A DNA stretch of 64,000 nt from Chryseobacterium defluvii (lineage in GTDB: Bacteria; Bacteroidota; Bacteroidia; Flavobacteriales; Weeksellaceae). Below the pieces are notes generated by a model. That model searched no databases and was not told the origin of the DNA. It worked only from the letters and a program-made list of their open reading frames with translations. The stretch covers positions 558,001 through 622,000 of the forward strand of contig NZ_RBXB01000003.1 of assembly GCF_003634775.1 (NCBI RefSeq), written 5' to 3'. Below are positions 48,034 to 50,516 of this stretch, piece after piece. The translations under genes were made by a program, and so were the position numbers. Position 1 is the stretch's first letter. Every line of letters starts with the position of its first letter.

Positions 48034-49437
48034 TTAAAACAATACTTTATCTTCTTTTCTGAGTTCTTCCAGATATTTACTTTTATCATCCCTGTAAAAG
48101 AGATTCATGGTTTCAAACGGAATCAATTTCAAGTCTTTATTCACAATATGAACACAGGATTTTTTGACCGCTCTTACATCAAAATCATGGGCATCCATAA
48201 AATTCATGATGATAATCCTGAACAGATTATCATAATCTAAATCCGGGGCACAAACTTCCGGTAAACAGCAAAGTAACTGGTTTACTTTAGGTTTTACTTT
48301 ATCTACTGAGATTCCTGTACTGAAAATATCAAGAAGCTGCATATGAAGTCCTGTATCCTGTTCATAAACAATGGTGTTTTTGGATTCATTGTTCAGTAAA
48401 TCAGCAGGATTGATATATCGTGTCAAAGGAATAATTTCACCCTGAAGCTTCAACATATACCCCATCGCTAAGGCATCCGGATTGCATGGAACAGGAATGA
48501 TGTCGTCTCCGTTTAACAGCGGAAACTGGTTCAGGATTTCCTGCCTTACTTCCGTTAATGTAATTTTTTCATGCGCTGAATCTTCCCTGTTTCTTCCGGC
48601 AATTTCCACCGGTTGGAAAGTAATTCCCCTCACACATTTCTGTTTCAGGGCAAATTCGATGATCTTTCCTATCTCATCTATATTTTTTCCATTCTGTAAA
48701 ACAACAACAAGTGTGGTGGAAAGGTTAAGAGCATTTAACTTCTCTAATGCTTTCATCCGGACGTCTGTAAGGTCTTTCCCTCTGAAATCTTCAAGAACTT
48801 CCGGCTTAAAGGAATCGAACTGAAGGTAAATCTCAAATTCCGGGGCGTAAGTAGCTAATTTTTCGGCAAACCCGGGATCATTCGCAATACGTACTCCATT
48901 GGTATTCAACATCAGATGTTTGATGGGTTTTGATTTCGCCATATCCATGATCTTGAAAAACTCAGGATGAATGGTTGGCTCTCCTCCACTGATCTGAACA
49001 ACATCCGGTTCCCCTTCGTTTTTCACAATAATATCAAACATCGCTTCTATTTCCTCAAGGCTTCTATGACTTCCATAATGAGGAGATGACATGGCATAAC
49101 AAGTGGGACAGGTAAGATTGCAGCGGTCTGTAACTTCCACAATAGAAAGGCAGCTGTGCTGCTCATGGTCTACACAAAGCCCACAATCATACGGGCAGCC
49201 ATATTCTACATCCGTTCCGAAATGTACGGGTATTTCTGAAGCTTTATTATAGTTTCTGATATTCTTGTAATAATGAACATCGGAAGCAATTTTTGTTTTG
49301 AAAAATCCGTGATCAGGACATCTTTTCGTCATGAAAACCGCTTCATCTTCTATAATGATCTTGGCGCCTACTCTTTTCAGGCATTCCGGGCAAAGACTAA
49401 TTGTATAGTCGTAATAGGTATAATTTCTTACAGGCAT
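48034..49437 (-). CDS. Radical SAM protein of the COG1964/Tes-like group
   Basis: A 467-residue iron-sulfur enzyme. The radical SAM motif is TDRCNLTCPTCYA (Cys 106, 110, 113). Before it is an unusual Cys-rich N-terminus: LCPECLKRVG (Cys 16, 19), RCPDHGFF (Cys 40) and CPYDCGLCVDHEQHSC (Cys 81, 85, 88, 96). The SAM-binding Gly segment is VQISGGEPTIHPEFF. Near the C-terminus are LLCCLPEVCAPD and FMDAHDFDVRAVKKSCVHIV. This pattern fits the family of archaeal MJ0619/Tes, which joins lipid tails, and also pterin methylases; the bacterial reaction is not known. It is the last gene of an operon with a small membrane protein and an Lgt-like protein. Confidence 0.85.
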   Translation of the reverse strand: MPVRNYTYYDYTISLCPECLKRVGAKIIIEDEAVFMTKRCPDHGFFKTKIASDVHYYKNIRNYNKASEIPVHFGTDVEYGCPYDCGLCVDHEQHSCLSIVEVTDRCNLTCPTCYAMSSPHYGSHRSLEEIEAMFDIIVKNEGEPDVVQISGGEPTIHPEFFKIMDMAKSKPIKHLMLNTNGVRIANDPGFAEKLATYAPEFEIYLQFDSFKPEVLEDFRGKDLTDVRMKALEKLNALNLSTTLVVVLQNGKNIDEIGKIIEFALKQKCVRGITFQPVEIAGRNREDSAHEKITLTEVRQEILNQFPLLNGDDIIPVPCNPDALAMGYMLKLQGEIIPLTRYINPADLLNNESKNTIVYEQDTGLHMQLLDIFSTGISVDKVKPKVNQLLCCLPEVCAPDLDYDNLFRIIIMNFMDAHDFDVRAVKKSCVHIVNKDLKLIPFETMNLFYRDDKSKYLEELRKEDKVLF

Positions 49438-49446
49438 AGCTTAAAT

Positions 49447-49683
49447 TTAAAATCCTCCTCCACAAATATAGCCGCTGATCAGTCCGCAGAGTAATAAACT
49501 AATAACCATAGTCTGAATAAACTGTTTTTTTGAAAACTTCCTGTCGTTGTTCCATTCATAGATGATTTTGGCAATAACCGCTACTACGGCTGAGACAGCC
49601 AACCCAATAAATAACATTACAAGAATAATCATCACGACTAATCCTCCGAGATTACCTACTTCCAAAAGTGTTAATAGTTTCAT
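49447..49683 (-). CDS. Small membrane protein in the radical SAM operon
   Basis: A 78-residue protein with two membrane helices (~15-38, LVVMIILVMLFIGLAVSAVV; ~58-74, FIQTMVISLLLCGLISGYIC). A cytosolic or periplasmic basic loop (YEWNNDRKFSKKQF) lies between them. It ends ICGGGF. It lies 9 bases before the radical SAM gene and 10 bases after the Lgt-like gene, so all three are very probably one transcript. No family recognised. Confidence 0.72.
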   Translation of the reverse strand: MKLLTLLEVGNLGGLVVMIILVMLFIGLAVSAVVAVIAKIIYEWNNDRKFSKKQFIQTMVISLLLCGLISGYICGGGF

Positions 49684-49693
49684 TATTAATAGT

Positions 49694-50443
49694 TTAATGT
49701 GAATGAAGCAAAAGCATTGTTTTTTTAATCTTATAAATGTAATAAATAATTACACAAATACATACAAGCTGAATAGTTCCCAAATTTCCTGTAATCTCCA
49801 CTCTTGGCTTTATAAAATCAAGGAAGAACCTGAATGTAAAATAGCTCAACATAAAAACCTGAAATAAAAAACCTGAAGGAAACTTCCGTTTTTTAGCAAT
49901 CATTTTCAGGAATATCCAAAGAGCAATCAAAAATGCTATTTCATACAGAGCAACGGGGTGCCTCAAATATTGATCTCCCAGATGCATTCCAAAAACAGAG
50001 TCGGTAGGAATTCCATATGTTTCTTCATAGATTCCCGTTAAAAAACAACCTATTCTGCCTATAACTATGGCAAACATGAGTGGAAAGACCATTAAATCTC
50101 CGGTGCTTTCTTTATGACCAACCATCTTTTTAGCGAGCTCTACTCCAATCAGCCCAAAAGCAAGCCCTCCTACAATGGTATTATTCGACCATATTTTTTT
50201 TAATGAAAAATTTTCAAATAATGCATAAGGATTTTCAAGGTTTCCAATAAGCTTAGACCCTAATAGAGCTCCTGCTGTTGCACCTATGATCACTGCTGCA
50301 GAAGTATTAAAAGAAAGATTTTTCGAAGATTTTCTTTTTGAGTAATAGTAAAAACGCATCCCGAGAAATATCCCCAGTGTTTCAAAAACAGGGTGTGCCA
50401 GAACCGTTTTACCGAATATTTGAAAAGTAACAGGAAAATCCAT
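49694..50443 (-). CDS. Prolipoprotein diacylglyceryl transferase-like protein
   Basis: A 249-residue inner-membrane protein with about seven hydrophobic segments. Lgt-type signatures are seen: TIVGGLAFGLIGVELAKKMV (family GGL.G...G), then VIGRIGCFLTGIYEETYGIP (GR(I/L)G.F..G), then YLRHPVALYEIAFLIALWIF (RHP..LYE). The late FTFRFFLDFIKPRVE matches the FRF..E/D region. Lgt moves diacylglycerol from phosphatidylglycerol to the lipobox Cys. This protein may be the housekeeping Lgt or a paralog, because it lies in an operon with a Tes-like radical SAM enzyme; the sequence alone does not decide. Confidence 0.82.
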   Translation of the reverse strand: MDFPVTFQIFGKTVLAHPVFETLGIFLGMRFYYYSKRKSSKNLSFNTSAAVIIGATAGALLGSKLIGNLENPYALFENFSLKKIWSNNTIVGGLAFGLIGVELAKKMVGHKESTGDLMVFPLMFAIVIGRIGCFLTGIYEETYGIPTDSVFGMHLGDQYLRHPVALYEIAFLIALWIFLKMIAKKRKFPSGFLFQVFMLSYFTFRFFLDFIKPRVEITGNLGTIQLVCICVIIYYIYKIKKTMLLLHSH

Positions 50444-50516
50444 CCTTCCAAAAGTAATACATTTAAGATTATTTGCTAATTTTATTTAATAAACAATTTT
50501 AATCAATTACCCTAAA

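Follow-up and report, generated by a model that had tools for sequence, protein, structure and literature searches.

What could an Lgt-like transferase, a very small membrane protein and a radical S-adenosylmethionine (SAM) enzyme resembling an archaeal lipid synthase have to do with each other? The question is raised by three adjacent genes of Chryseobacterium defluvii, which lie in a stretch of 64,000 nucleotides (positions 558,001 to 622,000 of contig NZ_RBXB01000003.1, assembly GCF_003634775.1), called the window in the following. All three are encoded on the minus strand. The first (49694-50443) codes for an integral membrane enzyme of the Lgt family with 249 residues, here named LGT2, which is a paralogue of the canonical Lgt according to Pfam, alignment and the fold predicted by AlphaFold 2 (AF2). 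It is followed by the gene of a small membrane protein of 78 residues, the putative substrate (49447-49683), and by the gene of a radical SAM enzyme of 467 residues (rSAM, 48034-49437), which Pfam, NCBIfam, alignment and fold identify as a relative of Tes and TrsS. The spacers measure 10 bases between LGT2 and the small gene (49684-49693) and 9 bases between the small gene and rSAM (49438-49446); the open reading frame (ORF) coordinates thus agree with a sequence-only reading of this DNA, which had described three minus-strand genes 9-10 bases apart.

We propose as the simplest reading, with belief and doubt about evenly balanced, that these genes form a dedicated modification cassette, consisting of two enzymes and a small substrate of their own: LGT2 would lipidate a C-terminal Cys and rSAM would modify the lipid. 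The proposal starts from what can be observed directly, namely the gene linkage, the co-occurrence, the Cys motif, the enzyme families and the retention of several catalytic or ligand residues of Lgt and Tes. While the parts of the cassette belong to known enzyme families, the recurrent small proteins ending in a C-terminal Cys and tied to LGT2 and rSAM are new.

With the cut-offs chosen by us an rSAM orthologue is carried by 27 of the 120 genomes searched in the family, 33 of 246 in the order and 34 of 395 in the phylum. Of the phylum matches 31 reach E <= 1e-99, the remaining three (G397, G423 and G603 in our genome numbering) being remote. The LGT2 profile matches in 33 of the 395 Bacteroidota genomes, which are all 31 genomes with the rSAM orthologue plus G353 and G488; 31 genomes therefore have both genes, two have LGT2 only and 362 possess neither orthologue. 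In two of the 31 (G367 and G578) the genes lie on different contigs. Within the genus of the window rSAM is present in 47 of 59 genomes.

In order to study the linkage we combined the best 80 named loci of a genome scan, 32 fetched regions and the window to a set of 113 loci (L numbers), of which 109 are distinct after dropping four duplicates. The best 80 loci include Flavobacteriaceae, Chitinophagaceae, Mucilaginibacter, Hymenobacter, Saprospiraceae and others, and judging from their titles and taxonomy they presumably all belong to the Bacteroidota. The 109 loci were picked by rSAM; LGT2 is present in 99 of them, always (99/99) on the same strand as rSAM. It is located upstream of rSAM in 96 loci. 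The two genes overlap in 57 and overlap or lie at most 60 bp apart in 67, and 14 loci have a distance of more than 600 bp. Ten stretches contain no LGT2. Of these, L122, L123 and L149 begin at most 310 bases from a contig end, L076 and L080 have LGT2 elsewhere in the genome, and L086 and L087 carry a Tes-type rSAM; L115, L121 and L167 fall in none of these groups. The functional grouping suggested by the sequence-only reading is thus supported by co-occurrence and linkage throughout the phylum. Its question whether the three-gene order is conserved has a divided answer, as the linkage is conserved and the order varies: the small genes stand between LGT2 and rSAM in the family of the window, and 3' of rSAM in most other loci. 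In the LGT2-rSAM gaps of 17 inspected loci no gene is common to all, and the ORFs shared there are shared pairwise by close relatives (L137/L140, L143/L154, L100/L107).

The most diverged loci are instructive. In L082-L084 the rSAM identity is 37-38%, LGT2 lies 3' of rSAM and is itself followed by a Cys-ended membrane protein. In L085, with 29% identity, rSAM is preceded by a gene of LGT2 type and by that of a membrane protein ending in Cys. Retention of LGT2 and of a small protein beside such diverged radical SAM enzymes is the strongest sign of a common function.

The small protein of the window starts with LLEVGNLGG, continues with a transmembrane (TM) helix, a loop rich in Lys and Arg and a C-terminal TM helix, and ends with SGYIC-GGGF. 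The last helix and the terminal Cys74 (49462-49521, minus strand; Cys codon 49464-49462), proposed as the lipid acceptor, are marked out by the recurrence of a C-terminal Cys at related loci. The window member was ruled out as part of a known family, as no Pfam or NCBIfam model matches it at E <= 0.01; seven of 30 members touch DUF4064 (best E 2e-6), possibly a distant or a compositional link. The relatives are not alignable across the phylum, yet they have a common build of one or two TM helices, a Lys/Arg-rich stretch, a last TM helix, in most cases [GS]-x-[GSA]-x-Cys, and finally a short tail of 3-17 residues (median 7 in 106 proteins). A locus holds one to three copies, two or three being found at 28 of 111 loci, and the shortest proteins, with one TM helix each, have 42 (L126) and 39 residues (L154). 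In 59 of the 106 proteins the terminal Cys is the only one. Counted back from the Cys in 123 nonredundant ORFs, Gly occurs 76 times and Ser 35 times at -4, Gly 75 times and Ser 26 times at -2, and Ile 49, Val 21 and Thr 12 times at -1; the search required the Cys itself, and L080 was left out of the count.

How specific is this ending for the cassette? The operon strand contains 105 ORFs with [GSA]x[GSA]xC in 134 kb, whereas the flanks and the opposite strand, together about 1,470 kb, contain 7. A uniform stop-anchored scan, from which L086 and L087 (Tes-type rSAM, without LGT2) were left out, finds small TM-Cys ORFs at 95 of 111 loci, with 128 in 376 kb of the operon strand versus 16 in about 1,705 kb of control sequence. 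When TM ORFs were picked blind to Cys, by position and hydrophobicity (leaving out L085, L086 and L087), 87 of 92 had a Cys within the last 20 residues and 72 were of the GxGxC type. An earlier statistic on merged-start ORFs (motif in 61 of 160 in the operon versus 14 of 280 elsewhere, p 2e-18) was insensitive and is superseded by these scans. In the genus sample a small gene with terminal Cys occurs in all 47 genomes with rSAM: 41 are found by profile at E < 1e-10, and in the other six (G685, G706, G719, G258, G691 with L218, G020 with L089), which were read directly, a divergent form ends in GGCICGF-x-L. In the 12 genus genomes without rSAM no match reaches E < 1e-10; two of them have borderline ones (E 0.002-0.01). 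As for unlinked substrates, in 41 of the 59 genomes the profile hits a single protein strongly, and all other matches are borderline; larger tagged proteins were sought within the fetched loci only.

The N-terminus of some of these proteins shows a motif as well. LE[VG]GxL is present in 24 of 105 small proteins, in the family of the window (49630-49683 in the window) and in Flavobacteriaceae, and LEVG occurs also in the divergent small proteins of the genus; it is perhaps used for recognition.

Before the last TM helix the mean net charge of the 106 proteins is +2.7, and 85 of the tails contain no charged residue. Positive charges flanking a TM helix tend to stay inside the cell (positive-inside rule), and because of the positive stretch before the helix and the nearly uncharged tail behind it the Cys probably faces the periplasm, as it does in a lipoprotein signal.

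That the first gene is Lgt-like, as had been read from the sequence, holds with a Pfam LGT (PF01790) score of 81.3 bits (cut-off 24.9). It is not the sole lgt of the genome, a possibility rejected when the search for a second copy found a canonical lgt on another contig, with 181 bits versus 81 for the window copy. In 11 of 11 further genomes tested an Lgt-family match of at least 125 bits exists, and the cassette-free genomes G103, G302 and G136 each contain two strong, canonical-looking lgt genes (about 183-226 bits). Like canonical Lgt, LGT2 has the Lgt fold: the AF2 model (mean predicted local distance difference test score, pLDDT, 90.3) has E. coli Lgt (5azb, E 2e-7) as its sole Foldseek match at E <= 0.001. 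We aligned 101 LGT2 rows (97 distinct sequences) with the canonical Lgt of the genome. The equivalents of R143, R239 and E202 of E. coli Lgt (R130, R205 and E168) are kept in all 101 rows, and G129, R130, G132 and C133 are identical in all of them, so that GRLGN, the beginning of the signature GRLGNFING, becomes GRxGC (R130-I-G-C133 in the window, codons 50045-50056, minus strand). Unlike canonical Lgt, with which it co-exists, LGT2 stays below the NCBIfam cut-off (TIGR00544, 38.1 bits, cut-off 118.9) and has lost HGGL as well as the Asn of the signature. Judged by model and alignment LGT2 has the Lgt fold and keeps the two Arg that are proposed to activate the phospholipid; other positions in the region of the active site are changed.

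The third gene had been related to Tes, the archaeal tetraether lipid synthase (GDGT-MAS, MJ0619), because of the Cys-rich N-terminus of COG1964, and the relationship is supported. Besides Radical_SAM (95.7 bits) Pfam finds Zn_ribbon_HMPTM (71.5 bits, cut-off 27), the MJ0619-type N-terminus, which has a single match in the genome of the window. The closest solved structure is Tes (7tol, E 4e-62; Foldseek TM-score 0.79, query-normalised), and with VIA-align the model superimposes over its length on Tes structure 7tom with Z 40.7 (406 residues, 3.2 Å root mean square deviation, 30% identity), the next non-Tes entry being MoaA with 19.8. The mean pLDDT of the model is 77.3, residues 369-397 being poor (pLDDT < 50). 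With exactly the spacings of Tes, 40 of 40 rows contain the zinc/rubredoxin knuckle C16x2C19x20C40x2H43, the N-terminal cluster C81x3C85x2C88 with H91 and the radical SAM motif C106x3C110x2C113. M411, at the position of the labile Met439 of Tes, is kept in at least 90% of these rows. The cluster ligands and motifs of Tes are those given in PMC9433317, and the Tes numbering was mapped onto the structure chain with the help of the C9 motif, which gives an offset of 20.

Unlike Tes, rSAM is linked to an Lgt paralogue and does not reach the NCBIfam cut-off for Tes (273.6 bits, cut-off 450). Its C-terminal auxiliary-cluster region is altered (C318, C390, C391, M411, C428), C318, C390 and C391 being invariant in 40 of 40 rows and three Tes residues being replaced. 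The best NCBIfam model is that of the radical SAM (seleno)protein TrsS (NF045646, 321.7 bits over residues 12-455), for which the cut-off of 490 is not reached either and from which the window gene differs by a frame that is open without selenocysteine; the literature searched gave no function for TrsS. Two Bacteroidota loci hold enzymes nearer to Tes. L086:9864-11321 encodes a Tes-type rSAM with 493.8 bits, above the cut-off, and has no LGT2 in its 19-kb stretch; L087:9107-10582 encodes a near-Tes rSAM slightly under the cut-off (441.9 bits), and its stretch likewise lacks LGT2. G397 and G603, the genomes of these two loci, have one Lgt each, canonical by score. From these sequences tetraether-type chemistry in Bacteroidota seems possible, and since the LGT2-linked enzymes score below the cut-off while true or near Tes occurs without LGT2, they look like a sister subfamily of Tes.

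Which reaction could such a set of proteins perform? Lgt transfers diacylglycerol onto a Cys at the periplasmic face of the membrane, and Tes takes hydrogen atoms from the ends of lipid tails. In the proposed cassette the small protein would be inserted with the Lys/Arg-rich loop on the inner and the C-terminus on the outer side of the membrane; its last TM helix would then end in the periplasm with a lipobox-like motif, the terminal Cys and a few residues. LGT2 would then move a diacylglyceryl group from a phospholipid onto the C-terminal Cys, at the face where its Lgt relatives act. Either afterwards or beforehand on the donor lipid, rSAM would activate a C-H bond of the fatty chain and couple or functionalise the chain, the simplest target being the chain end as in Tes. 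The product would be a small membrane protein with an unusual, perhaps membrane-spanning, C-terminal lipid, and it would probably remain uncleaved since position -1 rarely suits Lsp. That rSAM joins the ends of the attached chains, mutually or to a facing lipid, which would give protein-borne membrane-spanning lipids in ordinary Bacteroidota, we think unlikely. The small proteins are read as substrates and not as scaffolds because their motif resembles a lipobox shifted to the C-terminus. The family facts support each half of the proposal separately, and what joins the two halves is the linkage and the motif only. Inferred are the topology, the acceptor role of the Cys, the nature of the donor lipid, the sequence of events and the radical reaction.

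Several points weigh against the cassette as proposed here, beginning with the fact that its chemistry is deduced from linkage and motif. The rSAM is presumably cytosolic and the Cys presumably periplasmic, which leaves the order of steps and the access to the substrate unexplained; if rSAM acted first, on the donor phospholipid from the cytosol, this topological problem would be removed. In all 101 LGT2 rows a Cys (C133) takes the place of N146, and where E. coli Lgt has H103 (HGGL) there is no His, the place reading [TS]-[IVL]-x-GG (T/S89 and G92-G93 in 101 of 101; x is Val, Met or Leu in the rows inspected), although the pairwise alignment is weak here. In PMC4728403 H103 is given as essential and N146 is also marked as important. 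Without this His and with Cys for Asn, LGT2 may use another donor or acceptor or catalyse another reaction. Likewise C438, Y459 and C470 of Tes correspond to I410, I431 and E442 of rSAM, so that the Tes mechanism may not carry over, and the C390/C391 pair is absent in the rSAMs of L082-L084. G353 has LGT2 and no rSAM in the phylum search; its orphan LGT2 (L193:6653-7498), with no rSAM or small Cys protein nearby, may mark a loss of the system.

The small proteins themselves contribute further difficulties. Gly, Ala or Ser is found at -1 in 17 of 106 and the full lipobox [LVI][ASTVIG][GAS]C in three, for which reason cleavage by Lsp is not expected. The window copy, S-G-Y-I-C, fits the -4 column and not the -2 column. 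The stop-anchored scan missed 16 of 111 loci; nine of these hold a small Cys ORF by eye, without a matched control (L080, L081, L119, L123, L129, L153, L157, L163, L164), and neither scan nor eye finds one in L076, L115 and L175 or, near contig ends, in L078, L103, L120 and L167. In the Cys-blind test 17 loci yielded no candidate, and one of the 87 Cys-positive ORFs really belongs to the end of LGT2. In this locus (L098) LGT2 lies 5' of rSAM and its frame looks split into a 185-residue frame and a 50-residue ORF resembling its end, due to an assembly error or to decay. Finally, a 68-residue ORF 3' of rSAM in L133, a paralogue near a normal copy, has Phe for the terminal Cys (SLGIF-GALMYNK) and is perhaps a decoy or a decayed copy.

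Other explanations start from the same proteins. Precursors that are short, evolve fast and occur in several copies next to a conserved radical SAM enzyme are typical of ribosomally synthesised and post-translationally modified peptides (RiPPs). The small proteins answer this description, and their LE[VG]GxL (24 of 105) could be a recognition sequence, so that rSAM might modify the small protein itself, for instance by introducing a thioether or C-C bond close to its terminal Cys or its GxG residues, with LGT2 lipidating the modified peptide or acting elsewhere. Diacylglycerol (DAG)-carrying RiPPs are in fact known from Bacteroidota (PMC12636315). We nevertheless regard a peptide modification as improbable, because rSAM is Tes-like over its length, including the MJ0619-type N-terminus, and because the residues that the small proteins share widely are all located in a TM helix or next to it, where a soluble enzyme should hardly reach them. 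The small protein could instead be an anchor that brings rSAM and LGT2 together, a role as scaffold which the sequence-only reading had suggested: the small membrane proteins are encoded beside the two enzymes, the real substrate could be a free membrane lipid, and the Cys, the sole one in 59 of 106, could be structural or redox-active, as a metal ligand or in a disulfide. This is quite improbable and less well supported than a role as substrate. Among seven loci of the window's family the identity is 92% for rSAM and 66% for LGT2 versus 40% for the small protein, which reads like a conserved enzyme and a fast-evolving substrate; the relatives are short and hypervariable, occur in one to three copies and have little in common beyond the C-terminal TM helix with its Cys motif, and in proteins of down to about 40 residues and one TM helix (L126, L154), with this motif at the extreme C-terminus, there is no obvious surface for interactions.

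If, on the other hand, LGT2 were no longer directed at proteins, it could make or move a special lipid together with rSAM, the small proteins being regulators or unrelated passengers. The loss of H103 and N146 would be understandable then, and the ICMT/PEMT-like methyltransferase and the DUF4395 protein encoded in the operon of L083 and L084 (L082 is alike by look) recall a lipid pathway. Such a free-lipid function is very improbable in view of Cys-ended proteins occurring far above chance at these loci and missing at E < 1e-10 from the 12 genomes of the genus that lack rSAM. A chance grouping of unrelated genes, to which the patchy presence (47 of 59 genus and 27 of 120 family genomes) might point, has a practically negligible probability and was rejected by the counts, as co-occurrence is 31 of 31 and the strand is the same in all 99 loci with LGT2 in the stretch.

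A dedicated cassette for C-terminal lipidation would differ from the systems known so far. In bacterial lipoproteins the Cys belongs to an N-terminal signal peptide with lipobox, whereas in the small proteins it is C-terminal and mostly without a lipobox. The MYXO-CTERM tags processed by myxosortase are similar in that they contain a TM helix and an invariant Cys at the C-terminus; a lipidating enzyme of the Lgt type was predicted for them and not identified (PMC11980579). There the order is Cys, TM helix and an Arg-rich cytoplasmic end; this order is not found in the small proteins, which have the Lys/Arg stretch, the TM helix, the Cys and a short tail that is probably outside. The DAG-RiPPs of the dyb cluster in Bacteroidota share the small precursor that is modified by a metalloenzyme and the lipoprotein pathway. 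In these (PMC12636315) the lipidated Cys is N-terminal, and the modification relies on the ubiquitous lipoprotein pathway and on an MNIO enzyme, in contrast to the C-terminal Cys, the dedicated Lgt paralogue and the radical SAM enzyme of the cassette. Among titles, beginnings of abstracts and text passages of the open-licence literature we found no report of a linkage of Lgt-like and Tes-like radical SAM genes or of these small proteins.

If C-terminal lipidation and a radical step on the lipid were true, the cassette would represent a new kind of system, a C-terminal counterpart to the lipoprotein pathway and, with regard to the ICMT-like methyltransferase in the operon of L083 and L084, to CaaX processing. 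Being compact (three genes) and present in many environmental bacteria, it makes the core claim experimentally accessible. It would offer a genetic system for asking which role the archaeal tetraether synthase's relatives play in bacteria, whether an enzyme of the Lgt type can lipidate a cysteine at the C-terminus, as predicted for MYXO-CTERM, and which purpose is served by micro-membrane-proteins that are spread over a phylum and mostly lack a matching curated family model. Tes homologues were noted before in bacteria from which such chains are not known (PMC9433317).

The additional genes mentioned above occur only in the L082-L084 clade, where the variant cassette has the order rSAM, ICMT-like methyltransferase, DUF4395 protein, LGT2 and Cys-ended protein (L083:9486-13088 and L084:3435-6941 by Pfam; L082:9053-12617 by look) and recalls the C-terminal methylation in CaaX processing. 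At all three loci (L082, L083:11508-11948, L084) the DUF4395-type protein ends in a Cys-rich CPA.K...C.....CC. In the window, promoter and terminator scans gave nothing exceeding shuffled sequence, and no tandem repeats were found in a scan. Immediately 5' of the LGT2 start, at 50449-50456, the sequence TACTTTTG fits TAnnTTTG, the -7 element of Bacteroidetes, and may be such an element.

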